Source of the DNA: Euphorbia lathyris
Taxonomy: Eukaryota > Streptophyta > Magnoliopsida > Malpighiales > Euphorbiaceae
Direction of reading: 5' to 3'
Length of the DNA: 64,000 bases
Assembly (NCBI RefSeq): GCF_963576675.1
Contig: NC_088911.1
Location: 83,481,256 to 83,545,255, forward strand
A program made the translations under genes and the position numbers. Within the stretch, counting starts at the first letter, position 1. Every line of letters starts with the position of its first letter. Below are positions 1,506-46,465 of the stretch, one piece after another. The notes below the pieces were generated by a model. That model was not told where the DNA came from. It saw nothing but the letters and a program-made list of their open reading frames with translations, and did not search any database.

Positions 1506-1683
1506 GCTGCTCGACGAGCAGCCCAGGCACTGCCCAGGCACCGCCCAGGCACTGTGCCTGCTCGCCGAGCAGGCCACCAGAGGCCTGCTCGGCGAGCAGG
1601 AGCGTGCTCGCCGAGCAGGCCGCCAGGCGCCTGCTCGGCGAGCAGGGGGCTGCTCGTCGCGAGTAGCCCTGCTCGACGAGCAG
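1506..1683. repeat. Cluster of CTGCTCGNCGAGCAG palindromes in U3
   Basis: About seven copies of a 15-17-bp palindrome with core TGCTCGNCGAGCA lie together, mixed with GCCCAGGCA direct repeats, in otherwise AT-rich LTR. The 3' LTR copy (6069-6202) has fewer units, so the array changes by unit loss or gain. It ends about 120 bp before the TATA box, where U3 enhancer elements are expected. Confidence 0.85.
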
Positions 1684-1800
1684 ACCTGCGGGAATTGGTC
1701 AAAAAGACCAATTTCGCCCCCATGATGCCACGATGGACCCCACGACTTCCTACATCAATAAGGACACAAATTAGGTCAAGAAAAGGGCCCGAGCCGCGTC

Positions 1801-1809
1801 TATAAATAG
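1801..1809 (+). promoter_or_regulatory. TATA box of the Athila-like 5' LTR
   Basis: TATAAATAG lies downstream of the GC-rich palindrome cluster and is followed by an AT/CT-rich leader. In the 3' LTR the same place (6320) reads TATAATAG, one A shorter. Confidence 0.7.
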
Positions 1810-2774
1810 AGTTTTTCCAATGTAAATTAGAGATCTTTTTCCTTTGTAATTTTCTTAGCTTTTCACTTTGAGAAATCCTCTCCACCTCCTCCATATCCTT
1901 CAAACCTCCATTGAAGACACCTCCGAAGCTCCATTCACCGAGGATTGCTCAAGCTTCATCCTTAAATCCTAGAAAGACGCCTGCATTGGTAGACAGGTTC
2001 CCTGAAGGGGATTTTTCTTCTTTTACATTCTGTCTAGCCTCTGATACATGCTATGAATTCTAGGTTTATTGTAACTTCGTGACAATGTTTCCATCTTTGA
2101 TATATATTATAGTTCTTGTTTATTCAATTGTTTTGATGTTTTAATCTTTGTCTTACGCTTTGTCTGATTGGTTTAACTCATTCGATAATCCCAAAATTAG
2201 GTTGGCACATATTGTGAGCTGAATCTGACCTAGTCAGTGCCTATAGGATTGACGACCCTATAGAAGATTAAGCCCAAATTACTGAGCCTTAGAGCTAGTT
2301 TCGGCCTCACAAGGGAATCACGAACTAGGGACTTTAGGAGGATAGGTCGGGTTAATCGCTTTGGACACAAGTGACTTAGGTTTCAATTCAATTGTTTAAA
2401 CATTCTATTTTCATTATCATCGTATCCCTTCATGTTCCTTCGGTTAATTGCATTGGTAAAAGATCACTTAGGAGTAGTTTAACTTAATTAGGGGTAGAGT
2501 AACTCAATTAGGAGTAGAATAACTTAGTTAGAATCGGATAACTTAGCTAGGAATAGCGTAATTCAACCTAGGAGTAGATTAATTTAAACAAACCAACTCA
2601 AAACCCCCTAAGCCTAGATAACATCCGAGATCGAGTAGCTCGGTACTTGCAGAAATAAATCCTGTGGACGATAACCTGGACTTAAACCAGAAATTTATTA
2701 CTTGATAACGACGGGGTACACTTATCCCTTAGTGAGTCCTCATCTCTAACGTAGGTGAGGGCGCATCAAGTTTT

Positions 2775-2859
2775 TGGCGCCGTTGCTGGGGATATTAGAT
2801 TAATTCTATAAATACCCGACAACCGCCAATAATCAAGTTTTTGGCGCCGTTGCCGGGGA
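2775..2859 (+). other. Duplicated primer-binding site (tRNA-Asp type)
   Basis: TGGCGCCGTTGCTGGGGA (2775-2792) begins six bases after the 5' LTR. A second copy, TGGCGCCGTTGCCGGGGA (2842-2859), follows 67 bp later, preceded by the same TCAAGTTTT context. The second copy matches the tRNA-Asp-complementary site known for Athila elements; the first has one T for C. A short tandem duplication of the LTR/PBS junction is the simplest explanation. Confidence 0.8.
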
Positions 2860-3038
2860 TTTATTTCTTCTGCAATATCGAACCAAAGGTCGATTTGTTA
2901 GTTTAGGCATTCATTGTGAATATCCTTTGTTTATAATCGTTTATACTTGTTTATATATAATCTTTTATACTTTTCTTTTTGTGAATATTTGTTTCTAATT
3001 TTTATTGTTATTTCTAATGATTCTTCTTTTTTGGGAAA

Positions 3039-3554
3039 ATGGCTAGAAACAATGGAAATAAGGAGTCTATTACGCATTTGCTTAATTTTCTATCTACTCA
3101 CAAAGATCAAACTGACGATTTGTATGCCTCAATTAAAAATTTATGCATACAAAAAGGGATCCTAGTTGATTCAACCGCGGAAGAATCAATTAAAGAACCC
3201 AATTTGGTAGGTCAGGTTGATAAGGTAATATCTTTTCCCATTAATAATGAAGAACTGATCCCTAATTATGAGAAACCGAAAGTTTCAATATTAATTGAGG
3301 AATCAGTTGAAATTGAGCCTCTAGAGAAGAATCCAAAAATAGAAGAGTTCAGTTTTGCTCCAAGTCCAGAAATTTCCATTCTCTTTGATTTACCAAGAGA
3401 ATCAAAAAGGGAGCAAACTAAATTTTTTCATAACTTATTTAAATTTTATCCGTTGTTTTTATTAAAATTCTTTGAAACTGATAATCCGTTTTGCAGGTAC
3501 GGATTATTTATTCAGGAATTTGAATTCCTAACGCGAGTAGAAGCATACACCTAG
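3039..3554 (+). CDS. Unrecognised 171-aa ORF of the Athila-like element
   Basis: ATG at 3039 opens 171 codons ending TAG, 180 bp after the second PBS, where gag would start. The N-terminal third has helix-like composition (near MARNNGNKESITHLLNFL), the middle is acidic and rich in E, P and I, and the C-terminal part has FFHNLFKFYPLFLLKFF, aromatic and hydrophobic. No retrotransposon gag domain, zinc knuckle or protease motif is visible. It may be a gag vestige kept for packaging or a captured sequence; I cannot assign a function. An upstream overlapping frame from 2947 lacks support. Confidence 0.4.
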   Translation: MARNNGNKESITHLLNFLSTHKDQTDDLYASIKNLCIQKGILVDSTAEESIKEPNLVGQVDKVISFPINNEELIPNYEKPKVSILIEESVEIEPLEKNPKIEEFSFAPSPEISILFDLPRESKREQTKFFHNLFKFYPLFLLKFFETDNPFCRYGLFIQEFEFLTRVEAYT

Positions 3555-5644
3555 GCGGGAATTCTATGTCGAGCTCACCGACTATAACGTAGCGCTTCTT
3601 GGGAGGCAACCCAAGTTTTAATAAAACTTTTCAGGTTTGTTTTATTTAGATTATACATTGATCTTTTAGTTTAGTCTTTTTAGTTTTCTTTTACGTTTTT
3701 TTTAAAGTGTTCGTTTAAAAAAATATATATAATAAATAAATAAATAAATAAATATTTTTTTTATTTGTTTAGTTTTCTTTTCTTTTATTTTTATTTTTTT
3801 ATTTTAAAGTTTTCAGGTTTAAAATAAAATTTTAAAAAAAAAGAAAAAAAAAAAAAAAATTTTGGCCCTAGGAGGCCCAGCCTGCCGCTGGGCACTGGCG
3901 CCCAGCACGCCGCTGGGCACTGCGCCCAGCCCGCTGCTCGACCGAGATAAGCAGCGGTTCGGGATTTTTTTCCCGAACGAAGCTGAAATAAATAAATAAA
4001 TAATAATAATAATAATAAAAATTGCCACCGCAAATCGTCAAGCTTTTGGCGATTGCGCTAAAATCAGTAATTTGTCTTCTCCACCCTAACTTTTTGCACT
4101 TGTACTCTATGGTTTGTGATGCAATGTTGGAACTTATTGCATATTTTTAGTGTGAGGAGGAGGGGTAGACAAACTTACAAAAATTGTATAATTTTTAAAT
4201 TTTTGTTGCGTCTTGTCTAGTTTAGTTTTGCGTTTTCCGGGTTTTATTTAGGTTTTGCATGTTTAGGACCTAAAACCGTGAACCTCCTTCGAATCTAAAC
4301 TTCGTTATTTGTCCTTGAGGGCTGAGAACCGAATCTAAGATTGCATGACAACTAGTTTAGGTGTAGGACACAATCCTTGTATCTATAAAAGCATGAGCTA
4401 AAATTTGCATTTAGACCCTACTTTTGAAGAAATGCTAAAATCATTACTTAGGTAGATAACTTAAGAATTGAAGGCATGTGATGTTGAACTTGAGTTTGGG
4501 GAAAACTAGTAAACACAAAATTAAAACCCAAAGAATTGTGAGTTGAATTTGAGCCCAAGAGCGAACATCAAAAAGCTCTTTTTCTTGACATTTTTGTGTG
4601 AATGCTTTGACTTGTGGAAAGATTACAGATTTTGCACTTAATACTGTGTTGAACCTACATGCAATGATTTGAGATGATAAACGATGAATCAACCTCATTA
4701 GAATTAACCCTTTTCTTTACCTTATTTTTTTTTTCTTTTTCATCCACTCTAGGAACCCCTTTGAGCCTACATTTTTGTAGTTTATAGATTTTTCTTTCGT
4801 TCTAACCTGTTTTTGCAAACCACAACTTGGTTTGCTATTTAAGCCAATTTATTTTGCAAAGCTCAATTAGAGCCTTTGTTTTCTAGCGCTTTATCTTTGT
4901 GATAAAGCTTATGGCATTACAGTAGCAAGCCAAAAGGCTAAGAAGTGAGTGAGCATCACTATCCAAAAAAAAAAGAAAAAAAGAGAAAAACAGAAAAAGA
5001 AAAAAAAAAGAAAAGAAAAGAGACGAGCAAAAGGGAAGAACTCCATTCCCCAGTTCTTAGAAAAATCAAAAAACGTCTCGAAGAAAACATTCCAAAAAGA
5101 AAATAATAAGGGATGAATAAAAAGCTCAGTCACTTTATATTTGCTAAAGCCATTTAAACTTTGTTTTTTGTAGCGCTAGAACTAATAACCCGTGTTGTAC
5201 CTTTAACCCTCTAACCACATTACAACCCCGATTAGAGGCTGTTTTGATATCATCGGAATCATATAGCATAGTAGAGGAACGCGGATGAACGTGCAAAATC
5301 AACGTAATCCTAAGCAAGAACATAAGCCGAGAGTAAACACTTTAGCCACCAAAATTGTGTGAAATGAGTGAACTACCTATGGTGAGGTGTTTTACTTAGC
5401 GATCCCCTTAAACTCGTTTAATTGAACATGTGTCCATTTGCTTAAAACTATGACCCATGATAATTGAAATGCGGCTTTTGGATATCGTGTCTCTACTTTG
5501 TATTTCCGAATGCATGTAATTACAGATGCTCGAAATTGTGTCAAGCACCTAGTCAAACCGGGAGGTTTTCTAGCTTGCTTGTGATTGCGGGTTTAGTTTT
5601 TAGTTTACTTGGGGACAAGTAAAGTTTTAAGTGCGAGGAGGTTT
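3555..5644 (+). other. Internal non-coding region of the Athila-like element, with GGGAGGCAACCC hairpin
   Basis: Right after the ORF, TTGGGAGGCAACCCAAG (about 3599-3615) forms a short stem-loop; I recall this motif as common in the post-coding region of Athila-like plant elements. Then come A/T homopolymers, a GC-rich patch with CCGCTGGGCACTG repeats (3875-3945), and an A/G-rich patch near 4970-5040. The region ends with a purine-rich tract, AAGTGCGAGGAGGTTT, adjoining the 3' LTR. No other ORF deserves a gene call. Confidence 0.7.
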
Positions 5645-7286
5645 TGATAGGGGTCAAAAACCCCTATATTTGGGTACGGTTTTAGGACGGGTTTTAGCGT
5701 TATTTTGTTAATAAGCGAGCAATTCTCGCATTTAAATGCTTTTGTGTGAGTTAGTTAGAAATTGGAAACGTTTTATTTACTTTTCATTGTTTAGGCTCGT
5801 TTTATGATCAATTTAGGCAAATACAGCCAAAATGGCATGCATATTATAATTCCGTTATCTTTTGAAGCTAATTGATCCATCAAAAGTCGCACCAAACGAA
5901 GCGTTTGCTCAAATAAGCGATTGGCGGGTCAATTTAGCCCTTGGACTAATGTTGTTTGGAGTTTATGTGCGTGTGCAGGTTAAAACATGATCAATTTCAG
6001 GCAAAAATCGTGTCTCGGGGACCCCCGGCAGTCGCTCGGCGAATTGAGCATCGGCGCGCAGCCCGGGCGCTGCTCGGCGAGCAGCATAGGCACCGCCCAG
6101 GCACTGCCCAGGCACTGTGCCTGCTCGCCGAGCAGGCCGCCAGGCGCCTGCTCGTCGCGAGTAGCCCTGCTCGCCGAGCAGCTCGCCCTGCTCGACGAGC
6201 AGACCTGCGGGAATTGGTCAAAAAGACCAATTTCGTCCCCACGATGCCACGATGGACCCCACGACTTCCTACATCAATAAGGACACGAATTAGGTCAAGA
6301 AAAGGGCCCGAGCCGCGTCTATAATAGAGTTTTTCCAATGTAAATTAGAGATCTTTTTCCTTTGTAATTTTCTTAGCTTTTCACTTTGAGAAATCCTCTC
6401 CACCTCCTCCATATCCTTCAAACCTCCATTGAAGACACCTCCGAAGCTCCATTCACCGAGGATTGCTCAAGCTTCATCCTTAAATCCTAGAAAGACGCAT
6501 GCATTGGTAGACAGGTTCCCTGAAAGGGATTTTTCTTCTTTTACATTTTGTCTAGCCTCTGATACATGCTATGAATTCTAGGTTTATTGTAACTTCGTGA
6601 CAATGTTTCCATCTTTGATATATATTATAGTTCTTGTTTATTCAATTGTTTTGATGTTTTAATCTTTGTCTTACGCTTTGTCTGATTGGTTTAACTCATT
6701 CGATAATCCCAAAATTAGGTTGGCACATATTGCGAGCTGAATCTGACCTAGTCAGTGCCTATAGGATTGACGACCCTATAGAAGATTAAGCCCAAATTAC
6801 TGAGTCTTAGAGCTAGTTTCGGCCTTACAAGGGAATCACGAACTAGGGACTTTAGGAGGATAGGTCGGGTTAATCGCCCTGGACACAAGTGACTTAGGTT
6901 TCAATTCAATTGTTTAAACATTCTATTTTCATTATCATCGTATCCCTTCATCTTCCTTCGGTTAATTGCATTGGTAAAAGATCACTTAGGAGTAGTTTAA
7001 CTTAATTAGGGGTAGAGTAACTCAATTAGGAGTAGAATAACTTAGTTAGAATCGGATAACTTAGCTAGGAATATCGTAATTCAACCTAGGAGTAGATTAA
7101 TTTAAACAAAACAACTCAAAACCCCCTAAGCCTAGATAACATCCGAGATCGAGTAGTTTGGTACTTGCAGAAATAAATCTTGTGGACGATAACCTGGACT
7201 TAAACCAGAAATTTATTACTTGATAACGACGGGGTACACTTATCCCTTAGTGAGTCCTCATCTCTAACGTAGGTGAGGGCGCATCA
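5645..7286 (+). repeat. 3' LTR of the Athila-like element
   Basis: Copy of 1082-2768 with scattered substitutions, a shorter palindrome cluster (6069-6202) and a one-base-shorter TATA motif. It is followed directly by the ACGAC duplication. Confidence 0.92.
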
Positions 7287-7339
7287 ACGACCTGTCCCAA
7301 AAGTTGATTATTCTTGTCAAATAATCCACTTGTGAGCTA

Positions 7340-7690
7340 CAAAACCCCACTCTCCCTTCAGGAGCCATCTGGCCTTGTTGAATTTATGATAACTTTTTTC
7401 TGTGACCCAACTCTTCCTTCGGAAGCCATCGGATCTGCAGAGGACAAAAGCCCACTCTCCCTTCAGGAGCCATCTGGCCTTGTTGAATTTATGATAACTT
7501 TTTTCTGTGACCCAACTCTTCCTTCGGAAGCGATCTGATCTACAGAGGACAAAACCCCACTCTCCCTTCAGGAGCCATCTGGCCTTGTTTAATTGATGAT
7601 AATCTTTTTTGTGACCCAACTCTTCCTTCGGAAGCCATCTGATCTGCAGAAGACAAAACCACACTCTCCCTTCAGGAGCCATCTGGCTTT
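7340..7690 (-). repeat. 105-bp tandem repeat that stays open as 35-aa units on the minus strand
   Basis: CCACTCTCCCTTCAGGAGCC recurs at about 7347, 7452, 7557 and 7660, a period of 105 bp. Because 105 is a multiple of three, the minus strand reads as repeated 35-residue units containing KARWLLKGEWGF (7317-7682). Each unit also contains a half-similar segment (CTTCCTTCGGAAGCC). I see no known domain. It lies in the 3' part of the Ogre/Tat-like interior. Confidence 0.8.
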
Positions 7691-8189
7691 GTTGAATTGA
7701 TTGGAATTCTTCTCGTGGACTGACTCTTTCTTCAAGCTGCTGTTGAGAAGAAATTTCTGTCTGTTGACAATTCTGTTGTTTTGCTTTGGACTAAATTTTC
7801 TCATTCAATTCCCCTGGATTCTCTTGCTTCAGAAGATGTTGTTTTGGTGACGATCCCTAGAGTTTCAGGTATTCCCTGCAATAAAGCAAGATGCCTATTT
7901 TCTCGTAGAGTTGACATCAAATCAAATGATGAATGTGTAGTGATGCGTATGTAGCCTAATGTATGCATGTATGAATGTAAGCATGTTTGTGTGAATGAAT
8001 GTGTATGGTAGACGTGCATTTTACTCTGTGTTGATACATTGGTACATGTGTGAAGATTATGCATGAATGGATGAAATGATTTCATAGATTCTCTTTTCCA
8101 GACTCAAGAGATGGGGCATTTTTAGGATCAATGAATGATGTTTTGACGATATGCCCCATTTTGCGAGAGCTTATACTGTCTGCAAATGT

Positions 8190-8302
8190 TAATGATAGAT
8201 AAGTCTGACATGAGAAGTTCTGGGGGCAAGATTTTAGCTTGATGAGGATAGATAAGTCTGACATGAGAAGCTCCGAGGGTGAGGTTTCAGCTTGATGAGG
8301 CT
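8190..8302. repeat. Short tandem duplication (about 53-bp unit)
   Basis: GATAAGTCTGACATGAGAAG occurs twice, followed in each case by a similar stretch ending AGCTTGATGAGG. It is part of the non-coding interior of the Ogre/Tat-like element. Confidence 0.75.
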
Positions 8303-12779: not shown

Positions 12780-14152
12780 CTGTGGACGAAGCCTACCTCG
12801 ACAGGCTTTCACCCACGGGAGGTCTGTCATGACTACTATGGTGCTGTTTGGACTCGAGGTCCACTAGAGAAAACGACTAGCTCGGTAGGGCCGGTGTCGG
12901 AGAAAGAGTCGCCACCCGGATTTTAGGTCCGAGAATGTTACTGAGATTCCTTGCGGGAAGCAAGTGGGTTCGGGAAGTTAATTACGCTTGGGGAAGGTTA
13001 ATATCTCCTCGAAAGGAAATATTAAGCACCCCCAAAATCGCCCGGTGAACCCACCGGCCTCCTACTTAGCATTTCTAAATACAATCAGGCTACTAATAAC
13101 TCTTTTAAGCTTTTTAAATTCGTTTTGAATGTGATTTGTTTGGAAAAAATCATTTTTGTTTCATGTCATATTGCACAATTGTATACAAAAGAAAATAAAC
13201 AAAATATTACAACCCTAAAAGCAATGAAATATGTACAAAATTAAATACAATTATATCCGGGCATTCCCGAGTCTTCAATCCGCTCCAAAACAATATCCTC
13301 ACATACTCATATCCACCAAAATAAATGGTTAGAAAGAAATAACATAACTATATAATTAATTATGGTGTAAAAATGGATAAAGGACTAAATTGAATAAACT
13401 TAAGAAGTTTATTTAGGGACCTAATTGAAAAAAAGAGGAAAACTTGAAATTAAGGACAAAAATGAATGAAATATAAAGTTTCAAAATAGGGATTAGAATG
13501 AATAAAATATAAAGTTTCAAAATAGGGACTAGAATGAACCAAATAAAAGGTTATCAGGTTAGGAATCGAATTGAATAAAAATAAAGTTATTGGATTATGA
13601 ATTAAAAATAAATAGAAAATAAAGTTTTATTATAACTATTGGTACCTAAACGATCGTGAGATGAAATTTATCTCGAGTTGATTCGTTTATCCCAAATCAT
13701 TGTTATGAACGAAAAGAACCAATTAGATCAACAATATTAACTTGTAATATTATTAATGTCAAAAAAATAAAAGTATAAAAAGAGTAGGTTGATTGAAATG
13801 AATAAAAAGGCTCAAAACAAATGATTTAACTGGTAAATCACTGTTTTAAGGATAAATCAAATCAATTTAGGGATCAAATATATTTGATAGCATATTGACA
13901 ATAGAAATCAACAATGAAAAATAAAATCAGAAAGGGGAAGAACAATCTATATTTCAGAGTACCAAATATTAAATAATAGACATGATTTGTCCCTTAGAAA
14001 CTTTTACCTAGGTTGTGAGATGATTGGAAAGATCACAAATATGGAACACGGATGATGAACGCAAAAAAACTAGAATTTATTCAGAGTGATTCGGTAGAAT
14101 TTCGGCTATTTTCTGTCTAATTTTTGTCCTCCCTAAAGTTGTGTAAAGGCTG

Positions 14153-14287: not shown

Positions 14288-14366
14288 TTGTCAGTCCTGA
14301 CGCGTGTCTGCCACGTGTCAGCACGTGGCTGGCACGACCAATCACGCGCCGACACGTGGCGCCCTC
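14288..14366. repeat. GC-rich cluster of CACGTG (G-box) palindromes in U3
   Basis: Within about 80 bp there are ACGCGTGT, CCACGTGTCAGCACGTGG and CACGCGCCGACACGTGGCG, including three CACGTG cores. CACGTG is the G-box bound by plant bZIP and bHLH factors. Surrounding LTR is AT-rich. Confidence 0.8.
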
Positions 14367-16983: not shown

Positions 16984-17497
16984 TGATAACAACACCATAT
17001 TTTCCTGAGGACCAAATGAGATATTTACTGAAACGACTACGTATGGGAGCGGCTTGAAAATGAGGATGGCGTATCACGCACATCATCTGAAGGCGGATCA
17101 CCTAGACTCCGCCACATGAGATCCATAGTCGAACCTACGAGAGATCCTTCGTCACCCTACAATCCGCCAGGTAAACAGCTGAGCCGACTCTTCAATAAAG
17201 ATAATGAATGAGCCATTAATGAGCTAACGGACATACTTAAAGGAAACTTGTAACCGCCATTAATGAGGCATTAATGGAGACTTTCTAGTTACCGAGGGTT
17301 ACAACTACATGACTATATATAGCTTGCATCTCAAGCTATCAAGGTACACATTCACACAATCCTAGAAACTCTACTTTGTCAATTCAGTTTATTCCTTCGT
17401 TCATTATACTGACTTTGGCATCGGAGCTTCCCCCCGTCGAACCCAACGATGCCCCCACAGGGACAGAAGCTAATCGGAAATTCTCCACTAGTCATCA
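16984..17497 (+). repeat. 3' LTR of the Tat-type element (514 bp)
   Basis: It starts TGATAACAAC and ends CTAGTCATCA. A TATA stretch (ACTATATATAG, about 17311) is followed by a leader and ACTTTGGCATCGGAGC, a phrase I associate with U5 ends of plant Tat-type LTRs. Immediately beyond 17497 the sequence becomes the Athila-type LTR, which in the other copy is continuous across this point (25129). That proves insertion here. The partner LTR is outside the window. Confidence 0.8.
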
Positions 17498-19127
17498 GAC
17501 CGGGTATCGAATCCACGGGATTTATAACTACATGAAATGACTCGGTTTTATACGTTATCTAAGCGGTGAATACTTTGAGTTGATTCGGGGAACAACTACA
17601 AACTAATCCTAACTACGGGTGAGACAAATTTATATAACAAAAACTCTACGAAATAATATGGATGGCGATAAGTTATAAATATGATAAATAATGACTCCCG
17701 ATATATATACGGTTAATGTTTTACCCTTGCAATGACGACTACGTGTAGTGTGACCGACCCGTGAAGTACTTAGACTACGTGGTTCCTAGTCAAAGCGTGT
17801 CTAATGCTCGGGATCAGAAATTAGGGTCCGCAAGTTCTGTGGCTTGTCAATTCCTACGGTTTCCGGAGCGTCACTTCCGGTAAGGCAACACCTTATGAAT
17901 CCCTAAAGATAGCCCGAATGGCGTCGGAAATTGCGTTCTCCTACACAATAATCAATTACGAGTATCAAAACAAGCAACAAACATCAACACATATATAGAA
18001 AAAGAGATTATGAATCATAAATTATAAATATGGAGAATGTAAATATGAAATACAACCAAGCCTAGTACATAGGAAGAGTACAAGCTAATTAGCAAGTGAA
18101 AAGGGAAGAATCCACCCTCGGAACTAACTAACCGGACTCAAGGCCGTCTCTTAGGACTTGGAGGTGGAGCTTTCGAGCTTGGTGAACGGAGATGGAACGG
18201 AACTTTGACAGAATGCCGGAATCAACGAACAAGCTCTCAAGGTGATAGAGATTTGCTATGTAAATAAAATCTAAAACTATATAACAAGAGTTTTGTATAT
18301 CTCCAGCTTCCTAAATGAGTGCTAGTCACTCCTATTTATACACATCAGGCTAAGGGTAAAGTTGTAATTTCATAAGATACAAGCATGGAGGAACATGATT
18401 TTCTGCAGATTTCCCATGACACGCCTCGCGTATGGTGGGGGACGCCCCATGTATTTGCCCATTCCGTCAGAAATCTCCTGTATGTGGACCAAATCCAGAT
18501 CTTGTTGTCTCAACCACGCCCCGCGTAGACTGGGGTGCGCCTCGCGTGGTTGAGTTTTTGAGATTTTATTGCTTGAATTGGGTCTTTTACGCCACGCGTA
18601 GCTGAAGCACGCCTCGCGTAAATAAGTCTCTGGCTTTTTAGACTGAAGAACTTCCGATACACGCCCCGCGTGTCTGGTTGTACGCCCCACGTATTGTCAG
18701 TTGAATTAGAAGATCTTGTAGTCTGACATTCATGATTGAGACATTATTGCTTATCATTGCTCATACGCCCCGCGTGGAAGGTAGGACGCCCCGCGTGGCA
18801 GTGGGTAAGTTCCACGTGGTGCCTGCGGATTGAGCAATTATTTCTGACAATGTGTTACACGCCCCGCGTGGAGGGTGATACGCCCCGCGTATGTCGGAGG
18901 ATTTTTACTCCTTGCTCGTACCTGAAATACAATTCTCGAGAGCCGAGTTAGCTTGACGTTTTATTTTCTAATTTAATAAAAAATAAGGAAAATTAACCGA
19001 AAGTACGGAATTTATTTTTATTTCGTTATTTCATTAAAACATTCTATTTTTTCAATTAAACTTATTTATTTCATCTAAAATTAAACCGTAAATCACGCTA
19101 AAAGATAGGGACGAAACGCCCCTATCA
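17498..19127 (-). repeat. 3' LTR of the Athila-type element (left part displaced)
   Basis: Matches 25129-26762 with few differences. The visible edge at 17498 is the Tat insertion site, not an LTR end; the true end at 19127 reads CCTATCA (TGATAGGGGCG on the minus strand). It includes a TATA box (18331-18341) and the GC-rich motif cluster at 18419-18892. Confidence 0.9.
18419..18892. repeat. Array of about 12 ACGCCCCGCGT motifs in U3
   Basis: Variants of ACGCCCCGCGT (for example ACGCCTCGCGT and ACGCCACGCGT) recur at irregular spacing, often in pairs 15-25 bp apart, in otherwise unremarkable sequence. The same array is present in the other LTR (26054-26530). The arms ACGC and GCGT are self-complementary around a CCC core. 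In transcription order the array lies directly upstream of the TATA box. Confidence 0.85.
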
Positions 19128-20989
19128 AACCTCCTCGGCCTTTAAAGTTTTACTTGTCCTCAAGTAAAAGAAATCGAAAGACAAGGGATTGAGATTATTA
19201 AGAAACAAACCGTCGGTTGGTTTAACCAAGTGCGTGATCCCAAAGCTAAAGTTTTACGCAAAGCTTTCGGCAAGTACCTACGCAAACAAATGAGTGACCA
19301 AAACTTGTTTGAAACCTCCATGATCAAATCTAATAGGCAATATTAACGGGGGTCGATTATCTTTTGAGAACCGAAAAGTACCTCACCAAGGGATTTCACT
19401 CTTACGCTCAAATTTTGGTGGGTCGGTGTTTTTGCACTCTCCTTTGCACTTACTCGAAGTCACTTTGAGTTTGCATTTTCATCCGGGTTTTTCCTCCTAT
19501 GTTATGGTCTAGGCAATATTAAAAATGAACCCGGAGGGGGGTTGTAATGTGGGTGGCTTTTTAGTGGTTAATTTTTGGAAACTCACTTTGATGATCGCAC
19601 CGTGCTTTTATTTTGGCCTTAGTAAGTTCATAAAGTATAACTCGAAATTGCTCGGGTGGAGCTTGAGAATGCCTTTTGCTCTTTATTGTGTTTTTCTTTT
19701 TCTTTTTGTTTTGAGAGCAGCACAAAAACGATTTCGAAAGCTTATGGTGCTTACTTATCAAGGCCTTGGCTTGTTTCGAGTAATTCATGTGCGATTTGAT
19801 TTTGTTGGTATTTAAACAAGAGGAAAAAGGGTTAATTGTTAAAAGGGTATTAACAACAAAAAGTCGGTTAATAGGCTCGAGGGGGTTTCCTAGGGGTTAA
19901 TGAAAAAGAGAAAAATAAGTTAAGAAAAGAATTAGCCTAAGTGGGTTCGTTTTATCATCTATTGCCGTTTATACCAAAATAAGTGTACTTAACCCGGTAT
20001 TAGGTGCAAACTCTATGAATTGAGTGAAGTCAAAGCTCTCGAAAAATTGTGAAAGAAATAGAGTTCTCGTATGAACTCTTTTAGGCTCAAAAATACCTCA
20101 CAAAAATTCCGGGTTAAATTGTGTACGTTCAAGTTCTCGTTAAATTTTCAACTATCCCGTTTTTATTGCCTTTTTAAATTTCATTATAGAGATAACCTTT
20201 GGGTTAGGACTCAATGCTTTTGTTTAGTACGAACCTAGGCTTTGCATAAATTCTATAACTTTAGAATTAAGACTAAAATTTCTTACTTAAACCGATCCTT
20301 TGTGTTAACGTCTTTTTATTTAAGAACAAATAACGGAACTTTTAATTAATTTCCGAGGGGGGTATTGTGTCGGAAAAAATTTAAGAATCAATAAATTAGT
20401 TTAATTATTTTGTTGTTTATTTGATTTTTATTTTTGTTTTTGTTAGTGCAAAACAAACGGTAAGTGCAGGGTTGCACGACCCTCCGCGTTATTAAAATGA
20501 CATCTATTCCAAGGACGTCGCAAATGAAAAGAAAAACAAAAACAAAAATAAAGATGGGGGTTAAAAAGGAGCCTTGAAGGTCAGGTCCTACGCGTGGCGT
20601 GCCTAGGGGGGCGCCCCGCGTAGGGGATGCGTTGTGAGGTTATTTTGGCTAGAGACTCAGATACGCGGGGCGCACTAAAAGGGGCATCCCGCGTGTTCCG
20701 AGCTCTGGGCCAGTTATACGGGTAAAACGGTGGGCACGCGGGGCGTAAAATGGGGTACGCCCTGCGTGAAGATTATTAATTGGTGCATAATTAGAGAAAA
20801 ATGAACACGAAAAGAGGAAATAAACGAAACACAAGGGAAAATTATAAGAGAGACATAAATATATTAAAATAAAAAGAAAGTACAATCAAAACAACAAAAG
20901 AAACATGCAAACAAAACGAACTAAAAACATAAAACATGAAAGGGAAAAACATAAAACAAATAAGAAAACATAAAACAAACGAAGGTAAA
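19128..20989 (-). other. 3' untranslated region and polypurine tract of the Athila-type element
   Basis: On the minus strand this is the 1.9 kb between the env-like ORF and the 3' LTR. It ends with GGCCGAGGAGGTT next to the LTR, like the tract of the Athila-like element at 1082-7286. Six more ACGCCCCGCGT-type motifs occur at 20588-20770. An open stretch at 19525-19815 (plus) has no support as a gene. Confidence 0.6.
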
Positions 20990-22252: not shown

Positions 22253-23446
22253 GGTGTTAGTGAGGGATTGAGAGAGAGTGTAGGAAGAGTGTGGGGAGTA
22301 AGGGTGAGTTGTGGGGGAGAAGAAGGAAAAAGGGAGGGGTATATATAGGGGAGGAGTGGGGAATCCAAGTAAAACTCGGATTCCCAGAGGGGTATGTGAG
22401 GCGTGAAGAGGCCACGCCGCGCGTATCCCACCTCCTGCTCATTATTTGACACAAAAACGGCACGGCACGCGGGGCGTGCGGGAAAGCACACTTCGCGTAT
22501 CGCACCTCCTGGCCATAAATTGGTGGGAGAAAGGCGAGGATGCGGAGCGTAAATGAGGGTACGCCCCGCGTGGAGGACGGAAGTGGAAGCATTATTTTTC
22601 GGTTTTAAGGGAGTTTTTAAATTTTTATGAATTTTAATTGGTGGATTTTGAATATTTAATTATTTTATGATTTTTAAAGTGTAATTAAGATGGTGGTTAA
22701 AGGGAAATTAATGTGGAGGGAAGTTTAAGAAGTTTGGATTTGAAAAGGTGAAGGGGGATTGGAGGGAAGAGGAGGTGGAGTGGAGAAGTGGGAAAGATTT
22801 TTGGGGAAGAGGAGAGAGTGGAAGAGGGAAAGGCTGCCATGGGGAGTTGCAATTCGCAACTCCCCTAGGATACGCGGGGCGTGCCCTATGGGGCGCCCCG
22901 CATGTCCGCACACGTGGCTTTTATTCAACGGAAGTCCCAGCGGTTGAAGGTACGCGGGGCGTGGTAGGATAGACGCCCCGCGTAGTATGTCTTTAATTAC
23001 GAAAATAGGGACGGACACGCAGGTACGTGGGGCGTACTGGTGTGTACGCTCCGCGTGGCTTATTTTTTTTGGATTAAACATGGGATTTGTTTTTTTTATG
23101 AGACAGGAAAAAAATAAAAATAACTAAAAATACAAATAAAAATAAAAATAACATAAAAGAGAGAAAAATACAAATAAATAAAAATAAATAAAAATTATGA
23201 TACATATAAACAAGGGGTTTGAGAAATTCAAACCGATGCTACGTTTAGAGTCGAAGTAGCTCGACTTTCTCACGCGGCGGCTTATTGCAGGCTGTCCGAG
23301 TTGGAACTCGACGGGTCCGAACTTCTACTATTCAGGAGAGTTTTTGCCTGTCCGGACTCTCTATTTTTGCCCCACGGGTTTTGCTCGGTGTTTGCCGGGA
23401 GGGTTCCTAATGGCCTCTCCTGTTGCTGACGATTCAGGTGAGCTAC
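22253..23446 (-). other. Spacer where pol would be expected, with ACGCGGGGCGT motifs
   Basis: Between gag and the env-like ORF there is no trace of protease, RT or integrase. Eleven or so ACGCGGGGCGT-type motifs occur, grouped at 22413-22575 and 22868-23060. Purine-rich (22690-22850) and A-rich (23100-23200) patches fill the rest. The several minus-strand ORFs are low-complexity Pro/Ser readings. Confidence 0.6.
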
Positions 23447-24973: not shown

Positions 24974-26762
24974 TGATAGTGTAGGAGGCTAGGTAGAGCT
25001 TCTAAAAATATATATTATGATGAGTACGTTATGACTATGGATGTGATCTTCCTAAATGCTCTATATCTACTATACGCTACTACTTAGGGGCAAGTGTACC
25101 CTGTCGTATCAAGTAATAATCCGGTTAAGACCGGGTATCGAATCCATGGGATTTATAACTACAAGTATTAAACGACTCAGTTTTATACGTTATCTAAGCG
25201 GTGAATACTTTGAGTTGATTCAGGGAACAACTACAAACTACTCCTAACTACGAGTGAGACAAATTTATATAACAAAAACTCTACGAAATGATATGGATGG
25301 CGATAAGTTATAAATATGATAAATAATGACTCCCGATATATACACGGTTAATGCTTTACTCTTGCAATGACGACTACGTGTAGTGTGACCGAACCGTGAA
25401 GTACTTAGACTACGTGGTTCCTAGTCAAGGCGTGTCTAATGCTCGGGATCAGAAATTAGGGCTCGTAAGTTCCGTGGCTTGTCAATTCCTACGGTTTCTG
25501 GAGCGTCACTTCCGGTAAGGCAACACCTATATGAATCCCTAAAGATAGCCCGAATGGCGTTGGAAATTGCATTCTCCTACACAATAATCAATTACGAGTA
25601 TCAAAACAAGCAACAAACATCAACACATATATAGAAAAAGAGATTATGAATCATAAATAATAAATATGGAGAATGTAAATATGAAATACAACCAAGCCTA
25701 GTACATAGGAAGAGTACAAGCTAATTAGCAAGTGAAAAGGGAAGAATCCACCCTCGGAACTAGCTAACCGGACTCAAGGCCGTCTCTTAGGACTTGGAGG
25801 TGGAGCTTTCGAGCTTGGTGAACAGAGATGGAATGGAACTTTGACGGAATGCCGGAATCAACGAACAAGCTCTCAATGTGATAGAGATTTGCTATGTAAA
25901 TAAAATCTAAAACTATATAACAAGAGTTTTGTATATCTCCAGCTTCCTAAATGAGTGCTAGTCACTCCTATTTATACACATCAAGCTAGGGGTAAAGTTG
26001 TAATTTCATAAGATAAAGCATGTAGGAACATGATTTTCTGCAGATTTCCCATGACACGCCTCGCGTATGGTGGGGGACGCCCCGTGTATTTGCCCATTCC
26101 GTCAGAAATCTCCTGCATGTGGACCAAATCCAGATCTTGTTGTCTCAACCACGCCCCGCGTAGACTGGGGTGCGCCTCATGTGGTTGAGTTTCTGAGATT
26201 TTATTGCTTGAATTGGGTCTTTTACGCCACGCGTAGCTGAAGCACTCCTCGCGTAAATAAGTCTCTGGCTTTTTGGACTGAAGAACTTCCCATACACGCC
26301 CCGCGTGTCTGGTTGTACGCCCCGCGTATTGTCAGTTGACTTAGAAGATCTTGCAATCTGACATTCATGATTGAGACATTATTGCTTATCATTGCTCATA
26401 CGCCCCGCGTAGAAGGTAGGACGCCCCGCGTGGCAGTGGGTAAGCTCCACGTGGTGCCTGCGGATTGAGCAATTATTTTTGACAATGTGTTCCACGCCCC
26501 GCATGGAGGGTGATACGCCCCGCGTATGTCGGAGGATTTTTGCTCCTTGCTTGTACCTGAAATACAATTCTCGAGAGCCGAGTTAGCTTGACGTTTTATT
26601 TTCTAATTTAATCAAAAATAAGGAAAATTAACCGAAAGTACGGAATTTATTTTTATTTCGTTATTTCATTAAAACATTCTATTTTTGCAATTAAACTTAT
26701 TTATTTCATCTAAAATTAAACCGTAAATCACGCTAAAAGATAGGGACGAAACGCCCATATCA
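24974..26762 (-). repeat. 5' LTR of the Athila-type element (1.79 kb)
   Basis: Complete LTR with termini TGATAGTG and ATATCA (plus-strand view). It has the ACGCCCCGCGT array (26054-26530) and a TATA box, GTATAAATAGG on the minus strand (25967-25977). The U5 end (about 25085-25140) shares TTATTACTTGATA and GGGTACACTT with the Athila-like element at 1082-7286. The flank 26763-26767 (CTGTC) is one side of its target duplication. Confidence 0.9.
25967..25977 (-). promoter_or_regulatory. TATA box of the Athila-type 5' LTR
   Basis: GTATAAATAGG on the minus strand, about 80 bp downstream of the ACGCCCCGCGT array in transcription direction; the same motif is at 18331-18341 in the 3' LTR. Confidence 0.65.
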
Positions 26763-29700: not shown

Positions 29701-30477
29701 GTCGCCATCTGCTACAGCAGCAGAACCTGGTTGATTTTCTGATTTCTTCTTCTTCTTTGGACAATCAGTTTTCCAATGTCCTTTCTCTTTACAGTAATTA
29801 CAGGTGTCGTCTGGCTTGGGACCCTTTGAGAACGGCTTCTTAGACTTATTCTTTCCACCGTTTCCCTTTCCCTTACTGCCGCTGGCAAACAGTCCAGAGG
29901 CCTGATTATCTGCACCTGTATTGCTCGCCTTATGGCGTAACTCCCTGCTATGAAGAGATGACCTAACTTCTTCCAGAGTCACAGAATCTTTACCAACAAT
30001 AAATGATTGAACAAAATTCTCATATGAAAGCGGTAAAGACACAAACAGAATCAAAGCAGCATCTTCATCTTCAATTTTCACATCAATATTACGTAATTCT
30101 AGTAATAATGTGTTCAATTGATCTAAATGATCCATGAGTTGCGTACCTTCCTGCATTCGCAGGCCAAACAAACGTTGTTTCAGAAGAAGTTTGTTCGTTA
30201 GAGATTTCGTCATGTATAAGCTCTCTAACTTCATCCATAGACTGGCAGCAGTCTCTTCGTCTGAGACCTCGGTGATGACGTCATCTACGAGGCACAACAT
30301 AATTGTTGAATGTGCATTTTCTTCCAAAATCGTCATCTCAGCAGTGACTTCTCCCGTTGCCTTCTTCAACGGCGTCCACAGACCTTGTTGTTTTAACAAA
30401 GCCCGCATCTTGATCTCCCATAGACTGAAACTATTTCTCCCAGTAAACTTTTCGATTTTCACGTTCATCGCAGACAT
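26763..30477 (-). pseudogene. Copia gag-pol polyprotein (one frameshift, four stops, cut by insertion)
   Basis: The preferred start is ATG at 30477 (MSAMNVKIEKFTGRNSFSLW), where similarity to Tnt1/Tork gag begins; an upstream in-frame start at 30570 lies in the PBS/LTR region. Domains in order: gag; zinc knuckle CNYCKEKGHWKTDC (about residues 226-239); aspartic protease DSGAS (about 283-287); integrase zinc-binding H/H/C/C (IWHMRLGH ... CEHCVFGK); integrase core; RT with YLVLYVDDMLIAA (in 27350-28495); RNase H beginning LSTTEA. Breaks: a frameshift near 29090, stops at 28838, 28496, 27350 and 26864, and truncation at 26763 within RNase H. It is inactive. Confidence 0.9.
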
Positions 30478-30532
30478 CTTTCTCTCCAGAAAACAAAACC
30501 CCGATCGGAAACCGAAAGCTCTGATACCAGTT

Positions 30533-30765
30533 TGTTGTGCGGAATTAATGAAAGATAAATAAACAAGCAATCGAAAAACACAGATTTACGTGGTTTACCA
30601 ACGTTGTGTTGGCTAGTCCACGGGCAGAAGGAGAATAGTATTATTAGGAGGAGAAAATCAGATTACAATGATTAGGTTACATAATGGGGTATTTATAATA
30701 CCCAAATCTAACATAATCCCACTAGGAACTCATGATCCTAATCCCACTAGGAACCCATGATCCCA
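30533..30765 (-). repeat. 5' LTR of the copia element (233 bp)
   Basis: Begins TGGGATCATGGG and ends CCGCACAACA on the minus strand. It contains a TATA-like TATTATAAATA (about 30690-30700) and a 24-27-bp tandem duplication with ATCCCACTAGGAAC at its start. No partner LTR is in the window, so the limits rest on TG...CA ends and PBS distance. Confidence 0.7.
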
Positions 30766-41117: not shown

Positions 41118-44100
41118 GTCTGATACTTCCTTGACTCTACATTGCTCTTCTGTACCTACATTTGTAATTAAGCATAGTGTTTTGTTGTTTTGGTTGGCAG
41201 GTTTTGGTTGGCAGCCTTAATTTCCTAATACTAGCACATTGACTAGAGCTACTTAAACTAAATGAGAACACAACGAGATACGATAGATTAGCCAGAAGCT
41301 ACCTTAAAAATAAATATTCATCAGTTTGAATAAAGTAAGAGCATAGAGGTACCAGTTATCACACTTAAAACGTGGGAGGAGTGTGCATAATGGGCTTCTC
41401 TCGATTATCAAGAATTAAGAACAAATATAACTTGGTATTAGAACAAATATACCAGTTATCACACTTATAACATGCATTTTGTTTGCTAAATTAAATGAAA
41501 AATACAGTTTGTAATTAAAGAAATGTTACATCACATATAAATGGAAACAGAATTCGGAAAACACAAAGGTATACCTCCCAACAAAATGAAACCCAGACTC
41601 TCTCATTCCAACTCACCACATCTGTGTCAGACATTTCATCGAACACTTATATGGCATACTGAAAATAACTGCACTTTGCATACAATCCAAAAAGGGAGCC
41701 CCTCACAAAAATATCAAACAAAATACCAGATTTCAACAAGCGTGAATGTAGCAATTTTACTTGTTTACTAGATCATTTACTAATATTCACTTATAGGAAC
41801 TCCTCACACGGCAGCTCAAGGGTCCAAGTCAGCTTAGCAAACAAAATTAAACAGACCCAAGCCTTTCCATGGATTTGTTCCCTTTTAGAGTTTTCTTCTT
41901 TGTTCTCAAACAAAGCAAATCCATAAAAAAAACCATGAGAAAGATCGAGAAATAGAAAGAGTGACTTACTGAAACGGTTTGAACCGAAGAAAAATCCGTC
42001 GTTCTATGTCGTTCTCAGAGAAGAAATCACCGTTGCTTTTTGTTGTTTCCCACTCTCACTCAATCGTTCCCGTAGTAGATCGTCGCTCAAACAGAGCTCA
42101 AGGTGGCTCAAAGGTGCATTGGATTTCAACGAGATAAAGGGAAGAGTCTGCTGGATGAGTTTTAGGGTTTTTTCATTTTTTATAATTATGTGCCATGTAT
42201 TATAATTTTTATTAGGGTTTAAAATTAGTTTTAATGATGTGTAATATGTTAATTGGTATTATAGGATTACTAGACTAACGGTGTTATGCCACATAAGCCT
42301 ACTGTTTAGATTAGGGCATTCCAGAATCAATATGGAAGGACCTCTCCATGGGCTTTGTGTTGGGGATACAAAGAATGCAACGAGGTATGGATTCCATCTT
42401 TATATTTGTTGACCGGTGTTAGACGAGGTGCCGCGGCCTAATCTCTCGGGCGGACCGGGGGGTGGATAACCTCATGGCGACGTAAGCGGTGATTGGCGCC
42501 GAAAGCAACCAATCGTGGAATCAAGCTGCTCGGCAGGACCGGAGCTCGGAGATATGGAAGAGTCGCCACCCACGAATGGGAAAATGAACACTGATCCCTT
42601 GCGGGAGACCGGTGTGGGTTCGGGAAACTTAGGTACGAGCCGAGAAGGCTAGCTCCTTTTCGGAGAAAGGCTACTAGGCACCCCGACATCGCCCGGTTAT
42701 GAACCACCGGCCTCCTACTCAGCATGTTAGGCGATAACGGATTAATCGTATACTTCTTTAAGTTTAAAATTCATTTGAAACCCTTTTCTTTCTCTTTTTT
42801 TGAAACCGTTTTGAGCATATATTATTGAAAAGCCATATTAGTAAAGAATCACTCATTTATGTTATACATACACAGAGAGGGGGGAGAAAGAAGTGATTTA
42901 TTTACAACCGTATTTAAAAGTCATATCGTGTGTTTATTCTACACTAACTTATTCCCCCAAAACGAGTTTATTTACATGGTTCACACCTTAATCACCGTTG
43001 GAACGATTTAGGTGCGTTTTAAAACCCCGTTTGATGAAGTTTACCCGAATCGCCGTTGGAACGACTCGAGTGTTTGAAAACATTGAGATAAAAAAACCTT
43101 TGATAAGAAAACGTGGTTAAACATACAAGCCAATTTTATTTTGTACAAATCATTTAAGAAAACGATTCAAAACTCTATTATTTACAATGAAAACGATTTT
43201 AATTACAAGGCTCGCTTAATCCGTCGTTTGGAACGGACTAAGGTTTTAAAGCGTGATGTTTTAAGAAACGATTTGAAATGTCAAGAAAACACTATTTATT
43301 TACATTAAGAATCTCTAAAAAACCTTTAGTTTAAATAATTAAATTGAAAACTCTTTTTATGATTTATTTTCCCCCTTTTTCCTTAATGGATTCTCTACTT
43401 ATTATAATTACAATAATAAACATATTTGAACCAAAATTCACTCCCAAATAAAGCCCATTTGACACATGGACCCCTAAATGGCCCAAAGAATAAAGAAAAT
43501 AATATAGGCATATATATATACATTCATTTAAAAATGATGATATACATATAACTTTAGAAAACCAAATAAAGGATGCTACTCAATAGCTAAATATATAAAT
43601 AATAATGAAAATGAAAGATACTAAATATATTTTTACCTTATTAAAAAAACATGTAAAATAATAAACGAAATTCATTGTTAATAAGAAAATAAACTCTATA
43701 TCCCCAAAATGACTATTGTAATATATAGAAAATGACTTTCCCAAATATACATTAAACATTAAAATGACTCCTAATTATCCTCTAAACGTCTACTAATTAA
43801 TTACCTCAAAAACCCAAATAAATAATATTTTAAAATAAGACCCAATATAACTTAAATGAAATGAGAAGAAAAATCTATATATATATGTATATACTTTATT
43901 AAGTCTAATTAATTGAAAATAATATATAGACACATTAAATAAATATATGTACAAAGTATTTAAAAATAACTTAAAAGTATATATTACATAACTATACATA
44001 TATATATAAAGGACCAAAAGCTTAAAAGTTAAGAAACAGGGACCAAAACAGCATTTTTTACATTTCAGCAGATTTACCGACGGAAAATCCGTCGGTAAAT

Positions 44101-44778
44101 AGCATTTAGTGAGAGAAAGGGGAAATTACAGCAGCACTCCAATATTTTCCAGATTTATTCAAAAGCTTTAAATCAAATCTGATTCAATCGTTTTGGATTT
44201 CCGAACTACCAAAAATGGATCATAGTCGAAAACGGAAATTCCTAAAACGATGTTTTTATTTTAAAACATTATTTGAAAATTTCTTTTTAAATTAAAAACT
44301 TATAATTACAACGTTTTTGATACCCGAACTACCTTTTTATCGGATCACGGTTCGTATTGTGATATCAAAACGAGGTTTTTTATTTTAACACAAAACCGAA
44401 TTTTATTCAACACGAAACGAAAATTAAATAAATACGCTAATTAAATAAAACGTGACAAAATAAATGAATAACTAAATAAATAAAAACTATAACATAAAAA
44501 TAAATAGAAGAAGAAGATAAATAAAATAAAATAAAGAGAGTCTAGTCCTCGGATAATACCTTAAATTCGGTATCTGACAGTCGAAGCCGATTGATTCCAC
44601 GAACCACGATCTTCCGTTTTTTTATATTTTTTTTAGTAAAAATTGAACTTTAGGAAATTTGGAATTTTTGAGAAAAAAAAATATTTTTCTCAAAAAAATT
44701 CATTCTCTCTCTCTAAAAATGTTTAGAGTGAGAAAGCTCTCTCCAAAAATCCCCCCTCCTTTTGCATGGGGATCCGTG

Positions 44779-44789
44779 CCTTTTATAGG
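44779..44789 (-). promoter_or_regulatory. TATA box of the Ogre-like solo LTR
   Basis: On the minus strand CCTATAAAAGG lies 20 bp downstream of the palindrome cluster. Spacing and motif suit a U3 promoter. Confidence 0.65.
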
Positions 44790-44808
44790 CAAACGGGTCC
44801 CCGGACCA

Positions 44809-45019
44809 ATGGGCGACGCCCAAAGGAAATTGGGCGTCGCCCATTGGGGTTGGGCGGCCGCCCAACCTTGTGTTGGGCTACCGCCCAACAAGAGTTGGGC
44901 GGCCGCCCAACAATGTTGGGCGGCCGCCCAACATTTGTTGGGCGATCGCCCAACCTTCGTCGGGCGTTCGCCCAACGGTCGTTGGGCGTTCGCCCGACGT
45001 GGTTGGGCGCCCGCCCGAC
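44809..45019. repeat. Array of ten GGGCGNNCGCCC palindromes
   Basis: Ten units, most reading TTGGGCGNNCGCCCAA, recur every 20-25 bp. The central two bases vary (GG/CC, AT, TT, AC) while the arms are kept, a pattern in which pairing of arms rather than exact sequence is conserved. Confidence 0.9.
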
Positions 45020-46229
45020 GACCCTCGGGGCGTGCCTCGCGCCGTCGGGCGTGCGCACCCCGCGGCCACCGAGCGCGCGTTCCGTGCCGTCGGACGCTCA
45101 CACGTCGCGGCCGCCGAACGCGCGCTTCGCGCTACCGGGCGCTTGCGCTCAGCGGCCCACGAGAGCGCGCACCGTGCCACCGGACCCGGGCATTGATCGG
45201 ACGTCGAGAGCGTGCCACTCGCGGTGCGTCCGACGGACGCCGAGCGCACGTCCCGTGCCGCCGATTTTCCTTCGCTTATTATTCTTTATATATTTTTTCA
45301 AAACTTCCGGAATCAATCGCTTCAACCGTCTTGTTTTCAGGTTTTCGTCACAGGTCCTCCGACTCGGTGTCTACAACCAGTTTTCTAAAATGGCACATTT
45401 CATCCCATCTCGTAGACCAATGATGCCACGACAATTGCAAAGTTGTTCTTCCAGGAGGTAGTGAGGTTGCATGGAGTTCCAAAAAGCATAGTGTCGGATA
45501 GGGACACCAAGTTCGTTAGTCACTTTTGGCGTACCCTATGGGTTATTCTCGGGTCCACTTTGAAGTATGGCACTACCGTGCATCCTCAAACGGATGGGCA
45601 AACGGAAGAAGCCAATTGAACCTTAGGTAATCTGTTGAGTTATAAATGTGGGGACAAGCCAAATAAGTGGTACTATTTGTTAGCACAAGCTGAGTTTGCA
45701 TACAATGCTGCCGTAAGTTCCACTATTGGTTGAACCATCCGCTTGATCTTGGCGACACCCCGAAGGGACAAAAAAAAAGAGCATAACAGCCCAACACTTA
45801 GCCAATGACTATCATCAAATGCACTAAGAGGTGAAGCAAAGCATTGAAGAACGGAATAGCAAAGTAAAGCCTATGGTGGATGAACATCGGAGAGATCTTC
45901 AATTTAAAGCTTGGGACGAGGTGATGCTATATTTAAGCAAGTAGAGACTTGCTAGTGCTCCAAGTAGTAAGCTCAAACCGGGGAGGTATGGCCCTTATAA
46001 GGTGACCAAGAAAGTAAATGCTAATACATACCACATAGCCCTTCCCAATTGGCTCGAGAAAACGTCAACCTCTTTTAATGTGCAAGATTTAAGCCCATGG
46101 AAACCGGATGCGTCTCTTAAAACTACAAGGAACAATTTAGGGCCTAACCCCTTTGAAGAAGAGGTGAATGATGTGGACATATCCTACACAGGCCCGAAGG
46201 AAGGAGCCAAATTTCCAAAGGTAGCAAAA

Positions 46230-46465
46230 CTGCCTCACACACCGTGTGCATCAGGCCACAGGCCGTGTGAGGCCAAGCCAAATTGACTCCAAGTTCAGAC
46301 ATGTAGTAACACGGCGAGTGACATCCCACTTAGTGTGTCACTCGATGTGTCACCATCCACTCAGCACGTGAAGCTCGTGTGAGGATAGGACGAAAAAGCC
46401 ACGAATAAGCAACAAGGCACCCACACACCGTGAGGAAATGTGACTCGGTGTGTGGGTTGTCTTCT
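46230..46465. repeat. CACACCGTGTG-type motif cluster in the gypsy 3' region
   Basis: CACACACCGTGTG, AGGCCGTGTGAGG, GTGTGTCACTCGATGTGTC and CACACACCGTGAGG occur within 240 bp. Several are imperfect palindromes of ACAC/GTGT. The cluster precedes the LTR TATA motif by about 200-430 bp. Confidence 0.6.

Follow-up and report, generated by a model that had tools for sequence, protein, structure and literature searches.

Palindrome arrays upstream of the TATA box in long terminal repeats of Euphorbia lathyris: candidate enhancer arrays in an exchangeable U3

Are short GC-rich palindromes that recur just upstream of the TATA box of long terminal repeats (LTRs) binding sites in DNA, hairpins in RNA, or the debris of recombination? 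The question is raised by a 64,000-nucleotide stretch of the genome of the spurge Euphorbia lathyris (contig NC_088911.1, positions 83,481,256 to 83,545,255; henceforth the window). A preliminary description, made from the letters alone, had placed four palindrome clusters here, each private to a separate LTR family and 20-130 bp upstream of a TATA box, and had proposed independently evolved arrays in the U3 (unique 3′) region, perhaps bound by host factors. We refer to the clusters, and to the elements that carry them, as F1 (1506-1683), F2 (14288-14366), F3 (26054-26530) and F4 (44809-45019). The interpretation that we prefer, at slightly better than even confidence, is that these are enhancer arrays close to the promoter, in which dyad sites for a DNA-binding protein are repeated, and that they lie in a U3 that can be exchanged.

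Palindrome arrays and their place before the TATA box

The F1 array belongs to an Athila-like element in forward orientation. Its LTRs (TGATAGGGG...GCGCATCA; 5′ LTR 1082..2768, 3′ LTR 5645..7286, placed by pair alignment and LTR ends) are 94.9% identical, and the element is bounded by a 5-bp target duplication, ACGAC. The motif, CTGCTCG-N-CGAGCAG, is present in the 5′ LTR array (1506..1683) as five exact copies of CTGCTCGNCGAGCAG (at 1507-1683) plus variants, and in the 3′ LTR array (6069..6202) as four exact copies (at 6070-6202), the two arrays differing by 44 aligned gap bases; the TATA box (1801..1808) lies 118 bp downstream of the last palindrome of the 5′ LTR. None of 500 dinucleotide shuffles matched the palindrome count of either array, with arms of five or of six. 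GC content is 0.74-0.75 and the observed/expected ratio of CpG 0.82-0.90, figures calculated over short arrays. We assign F1 provisionally to the Athila lineage by its LTR start, its polypurine tract and the match of its LTR end to that of F3; the single F1 open reading frame (ORF) searched against Pfam gave no match.

The F4 array is carried, on the reverse strand, by a Tat/Ogre-like LTR of about 2.97 kb (42411..45376, the 3′ end set by alignment to other copies), of which self-comparison found no second copy within the window. Seven exact copies of GGGCGNNCGCCC (TTGGGCG-NN-CGCCCAA) at 44852-45016 and two versions with a 1-nt spacer at 44810-44843 make up the array (44810..45016), in which near-palindromes stand 20.5-23 bp apart, upstream of a TATA box (TATAAAAG, 44780..44787, reverse strand) identified by LTR reading and TATA match. 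Here too the palindrome count was equalled by 0 of 500 dinucleotide shuffles at both arm lengths (GC 0.68, CpG observed/expected 1.08, again over a short array).

F3 stands as a cluster only in the form of an imperfect dyad, ACGCG-N-GGCGT, whose innermost bases flanking the centre do not match. The ACGCCCCGCGT array is found in both LTRs of a reverse-strand element: the 5′ LTR (25128..26762, the portion common with the 3′ LTR; array 26055..26526, TATA at about 25976) and the 3′ LTR (17497..19127, apparently truncated at its U5 end; array 18420..18891, 12 sites), the pair being 96.5% identical. In 490 bp there are 11 sites with up to three mismatches, where 200 mononucleotide shuffles gave 0.055 on average, the motif having been derived from the same array in which its recurrence was counted. 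As palindromes with arms of at least five the sites are marginal: 40 and 52 of 500 shuffles equal the two LTR arrays. The motif also forms clusters inside the element, which the preliminary description had passed over: one at 20589..20768, with sites on both strands (gaps 21, 52, 73 and 21 bp), and others at 22413..23057 (gaps 21, 52 and 53 bp, one of 59 bp), nearly all upstream of an ORF at 21332-22438 on the reverse strand. This ORF matches ATHILA ORF-1 (PF03078, E 5.7e-6, 25.8 bits against a cut-off of 20.2) and the gag matches PF03732 (E 7.6e-23). The best of seven relatives of this gag, 60% identical to it over 99%, comes from Euphorbia lathyris. On these coding matches F3 is classed as a Ty3/gypsy element of the Athila lineage.

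The remaining clusters fared less well. F2 consists of three G-boxes (CACGTG; 14310..14358, reverse strand, exact sites 14312, 14322 and 14353, gaps of 10 and 31 bp), and as a palindrome array it is unsupported: 62 of 500 shuffles equal its count. The G-boxes lie at least 151 bp from the F2 TATA box (about 14161), outside the 20-130 bp of the preliminary description. A looser CACACCGTGTG cluster, previously described beside a gypsy remnant, has one exact site and is at chance level (229 of 500 shuffles equal it).

Nor are the families as separate as first described. F1 and F3 LTRs both begin with TGATA, the two elements resemble each other in the polypurine tract and are 71% identical over a stretch near the LTR end, and the first 38 nt of the F2 and F4 LTRs match at 82% (the F3 slice used in this comparison started 18 nt inside its LTR). 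There are therefore two lineages rather than four independent families. The Tat/Ogre label of F2 and F4 we presume from the LTR start, and for F4 also from its short LTR match to F2.

A scan of the whole window that was blind to motif, and asked for GC-rich 7-mers recurring at least three times together with their reverse complement, detected arrays in the two F1 LTRs, in F4 and, weakly, in one further place. The latter, at 61201-61700, has TCGACGA three times with its reverse complement in 400 bp and adjoins an ORF with a DUF1985 match.

We then turn from the window to the genome (1.02 Gb, 33 contigs), in which the exact F1 motif, the one motif counted genome-wide, is present at 13,400 sites, as against five for a reversed-motif control (forward and reverse counts are of the same sites). 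The position of the arrays was examined in 20 F1 LTRs (18 of 20 sampled loci plus the two in the window; L017 and L020 were excluded for want of a match to the R query) and in 30 F4 loci, the best of 40 scored from 5,663 first-look candidates and including the window copy, L025. All 30 F4 loci hold at least four exact palindromes each. A TATA match was lacking in one F1 LTR (in the window, where position 6320 reads TATAATAG) and in one F4 locus (L052). In the others position is fixed in most members: the last exact F1 palindrome lies 118 bp before the TATA box in 12 of 19 LTRs and 139 bp before it, 21 more, in three, the last four having 100, 120, 131 and 151 bp; the F4 array lies 65 bp from the TATA box in 23 of 29 (58, 86 in three cases, 109 and 110 bp in the rest). 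F1 arrays span anything from 15 to 205 bp while their distance to the TATA box is mostly constant. Thus the claim of a set place upstream of the TATA box extends to other family members, and family-private motifs at such a place are in keeping with U3 arrays served by host factors, F2 and the gypsy remnant excepted.

A sample of ten 8-kb stretches at round coordinates, 80 kb in all, yielded two arm-family arrays, both in F4-type LTRs with 79-83% identity to the window F4 LTR over the longest stretch. In 274,728 bases of other loci (L005 on) no locus had two or more F3-like sites with up to two mismatches. Two further signals turned up in these loci. An unrelated stretch (L060:6100-6600) holds a tandem repeat in which CACGTG occurs ten times over about 365 bp and which on inspection was judged to be something other than an array of this kind. 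The other, at L024:3501-4000, is a threefold recurrence of ACCGAAC together with its reverse complement; as an arm family it resembles neither F1 nor F4.

Several other features of the window may be noted. The F1 insertion is adjoined by a diverged tandem repeat of roughly 50-bp units (348-1081, from off-diagonal matches in self-comparison), and just past the element is another, of about 105-bp units that are 90% identical between copies (7339-7733). Inside F1, at 3870-3960, a GC-rich stretch carries GCCCAGC/GCTGGGC and a broken CTGCTCG motif; it has no palindromes with arms of at least five and its predicted RNA fold is modest (z about -3). Copia-type frames directly flank the F3 LTR (26762-30585, among them 26864-27349 and, with RVT_2, 27350-28495), and because of this F3 seems, judged from the one flank, to have inserted into a copia element. 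A direct repeat pair of about 97% identity (50391-52701 and 54512-56652, starting TGTCACAC and TGCCACAC) showed no palindrome array in the scan.

Spacing of the sites and exchange of U3

The spacing of the sites, also unremarked in the preliminary description, is regular in F4 and F3. In 30 F4 LTRs, 259 of 268 gaps between neighbouring near-palindromes measure 20.5-24 bp. In both F3 LTR arrays the sites form pairs 20-21 bp apart followed by 52, 73-74 or 83 bp to the next, and the internal clusters repeat the gaps 21, 52-53 and 73. Phase coherence at 10.3-10.7 bp reaches 0.958 (3′ LTR, at 10.4 bp) and 0.960 in the two LTRs, which belong to the same element and are not independent, and 0.992 in a five-site internal cluster, values attained by none of 2000 random placements each. 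Reducing each pair to a single site leaves the 3′ LTR at 0.951 (reached in 9 of 5000 random placements). All of this F3 spacing comes from one element, its two LTRs and internal clusters. F1 gaps are irregular, ranging from 19 to 128 bp, 21 bp being frequent (13 of 77).

The recurrence of F3 pairs at 73 bp, near half the size of a nucleosome core, lends something to the idea of a chromatin element, in which GC- and CpG-rich sites with AT-rich spacers would position a nucleosome or hold the TATA region in an open or a methylated state. The CpG ratio of F1 arrays (mean 1.15) likewise exceeds that of R-U5, the repeated and unique 5′ part of the LTR (0.78), but the contrast is reversed in F4 (1.15 against 1.69) and F1 is without such a period; we consider this explanation very unlikely.

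What the array is attached to can be judged from a solo LTR near the end of the window (56853..58392, forward strand, target duplication GTTGG, TATA near 57493), which had escaped the preliminary description. It has the ends and R-U5 of F1 and an unrelated, AT-rich U3: the first 65 bases are 84% identical to F1, and from about 30 bp past the TATA box onward identity is 82% over 921 columns, with nothing between these two parts alignable by blastn. The arm-family scan found no array in this sister LTR. Other copies are mosaic. L015 and L016 are 95-100% identical to the window F1 in each 60-nt bin over LTR positions 1-480 and 56-78% over 721-1140; L012, L018 and L024 are 66-96% identical in the first six bins and 83-98% over 721-1140. 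These opposite patterns mean that U3 and R-U5 have different histories. Because the sister LTR combines F1 ends and R-U5 with an unrelated U3, and because other copies are mosaic, the array appears to travel within an exchangeable U3 block. The proposal of independent origin is consequently sustained only in part: the U3s do differ, but some of the LTR scaffold is common to F1, F3 and the sister LTR.

The arrays themselves change rapidly. An element should start out with two identical LTRs when it inserts; yet in six of seven putative F1 pairs compared, 22-92 aligned gap bases separate the two arrays, the remainder being 98.4-100% identical. Outside the array there are gaps as well in three of the pairs, of 19, 130 and 253 bases, which may include differences in where the LTRs were cut. 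Pairs were assigned by strand and distance, target duplications having been checked for the window pair, and since L009, L010 and L011 are consecutive, two of the seven pairs share L010. Given the contrast between array gaps and near-identical remainder, arrays must rearrange faster than their surroundings. Such turnover, together with the irregular F1 gaps, is what one would expect if the arrays were a mutational by-product, palindromes driving slippage and template switching such that arrays grow and homogenise without function. That account leaves unexplained the fixed TATA distance, the regular F3 and F4 spacing, the different linkers between near-identical cores and the array-free sister LTR, and we regard it as distinctly unlikely.

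DNA sites or RNA hairpins

A more serious question is whether the palindromes matter as hairpins, in RNA or single-stranded DNA: read-through RNA of an array might form duplexes that feed small-RNA silencing, or might have a role in packaging or reverse transcription. Compared with shuffles, and on both strands, F1 arrays fold as RNA at z of about -5 to -11 and the F4 array at -19 to -20, the F2 stretch at -5.4 (sense) and -2.9 (antisense), and the internal F3 stretch at -7 to -9; the U3 of the sister LTR shows no RNA structure beyond shuffles. Small-RNA hotspots over Sirevirus palindromes have moreover been reported (in parts of PMC5311732 and PMC10760457). Against hairpins stands the weak folding of the F3 LTR arrays (z about -1.2 in the 5′ LTR, -2.5 to -3.3 in the 3′ LTR). 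Arm changes, tallied in 107 F1 and 272 F4 sites, tell the same way: F1 has no excess of compensatory changes (5 double changes against 4.7 expected), the double changes of F4 are mostly not complementary, and G.U mismatches do not outnumber A.C (16 to 22 in F1, 50 to 69 in F4). This is a weak test, the changes probably being mostly in dead copies, and selection on hairpins finds no clear support in it.

The distribution of conservation along the sites is also telling. Information content is 1.1-2.0 bits in F1 arms against 0.03-0.81 in the flanks, and 0.96-1.97 against 0.07-1.17 in F4, sites having been picked by motif similarity, which inflates the arm values. The F1 centre is free (G 45, C 40, A 10, T 2), and the arm bases beside the 1-2 nt centre, which would be free in a loop, are conserved at 1.5-2.0 bits. 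We have therefore set aside the RNA hairpin as the conserved feature, despite the strong fold energy of F1 and F4, and consider hairpins an unlikely explanation. Protein binding at the level of DNA is favoured because of the fixed TATA distance, the conserved arms around a free centre, the spacing of F3 and F4, the lack of G.U excess and the lack of F1 compensation.

On the preferred interpretation, enhancer arrays of dyad binding sites, each site would consist of two half-sites of 5-8 bp, inverted relative to each other on either side of a free centre of 1-2 bp, as would suit a host protein that binds DNA as a dimer. Such sites, repeated at about two helical turns in F3 and F4 and standing at a set distance before the TATA box, may then recruit the protein cooperatively and so enhance transcription. 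Related LTRs that keep the outer end and R-U5 and differ in U3 suggest that a lineage could swap its motif by recombination, probably through template switching during reverse transcription.

A number of observations weigh against this interpretation. The sister LTR inserted without an array, and arrays are to that extent dispensable. The fixed TATA distance must partly reflect inheritance, the copies being kin and the F4 loci the 30 best matches. A 10.5-bp phase shared by all families does not hold: F1 shows none (n*R^2 0.79-0.87 at 10.4-10.6 bp, where 1 is expected at random) and F4 only an approximate one, its best single period being 11.0 bp. The larger internal F3 region has a coherence of 0.582 (216 of 2000 random placements), a 59-bp gap breaking the grid, and the grid may in part derive from an old 73-bp tandem duplication, because two pairs of spacers from different places resemble one another (z 4.5 and 3.1), most spacers being dissimilar (median over pairs 0.95). 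Finally, the F1, F4 and F2 arrays do fold well as RNA, and F4 double arm changes are in excess (44 against 32.9 expected, 13 of the 44 complementary).

A broader generalisation, which we regard as rather unlikely, is that unrelated lineages of plant Ty3/gypsy LTRs have repeatedly reached one plan: a row of dyads with a free 1-2 bp centre, spaced by whole helical turns before the TATA box, in a swappable U3. If this were true, each lineage could change which host factor it answers to and yet keep the geometry.

Comparison with known systems

In simian virus 40 (SV40) the 21-bp repeats place GC-rich sites at intervals of about two helical turns shortly before the TATA region. The F4 spacing is similar, although SV40 is an unrelated animal virus and the likeness is one of analogy only; Sp1, the protein that binds the SV40 repeats, is not known from plants.

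Among plant elements, Del (Ty3/gypsy) LTRs are described as having a plastic, length-variable, GC-rich CpG island in their 5′ part (PMC4029996). Being gypsy, variable and GC-rich this island is like the arrays reported here, but the main text of that paper never mentions palindromes. In einkorn, the LTRs of RLG_Cereba and RLG_Quinta are described as conserved from near the TATA box on and as differing in sequence before it, the layout seen between F1 and its sister LTR, although the account of these LTRs describes no palindrome array. PMC5668417 deals with recombination among the members of a family in the course of bursts. That regulatory regions of transposable elements are often arrays of repeats, sometimes palindromic, has already been published (in part of PMC10760457).

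In the literature searched we did not find the five array motif strings, Ty3/gypsy cases of such arrays, their regular spacing or their exchange with U3; for Ogre/Tat LTRs no palindrome arrays were found by a search whose whole-word matching could hardly catch the stem 'palindrom'.

By description, the arrays most resemble the RM boxes of Sireviruses (Ty1/copia), which are palindromic, element-specific, GC/CpG rich and clustered in the LTR before the TATA box, with extra internal boxes upstream of ENV in ENV-bearing elements (according to parts of PMC2829016). F1 and F4 palindromes, and the imperfect F3 dyad, are likewise repeated upstream of the TATA box (F2 does not qualify as a palindrome array at the threshold used), and the clusters inside F3, before an additional ORF, recall the internal boxes. 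The maize Sirevirus LTR, with its hypervariable palindrome-rich regulatory region and small-RNA hotspots (as portrayed in parts of PMC5311732 and PMC10760457), offers a similar likeness, except that F1 arms are without hairpin covariation. For copy number the yardstick in Sireviruses is at least eight RM boxes per element; the counts here, made per LTR, are 9-11 near-palindromes in F4, 11-12 sites in F3 and only 3-7 near-palindromes in F1. F3 and F4 are regularly spaced.

The RM motif has been called Sirevirus-specific and absent from the classic elements compared (in the relevant part of PMC2829016). Because F3 belongs to Ty3/gypsy and the RM-box core, CGG-CCG, is absent, the arms here being CTGCTCG, TTGGGCG and ACGCG/GGCGT, the arrays appear to fall outside the Sirevirus system; for F1 and F4 lineage is assigned from LTR features and not from coding domains. 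Clustered palindromes upstream of the TATA box would thereby be extended from Sireviruses to abundant Ty3/gypsy-type LTRs of a spurge. The window moreover holds a natural control in the sister LTR, whose U3 is of another kind. Set beside three motifs that are unrelated to one another, this control allows a test of what is maintained in such arrays: their geometry, their sequence or their folding as RNA.

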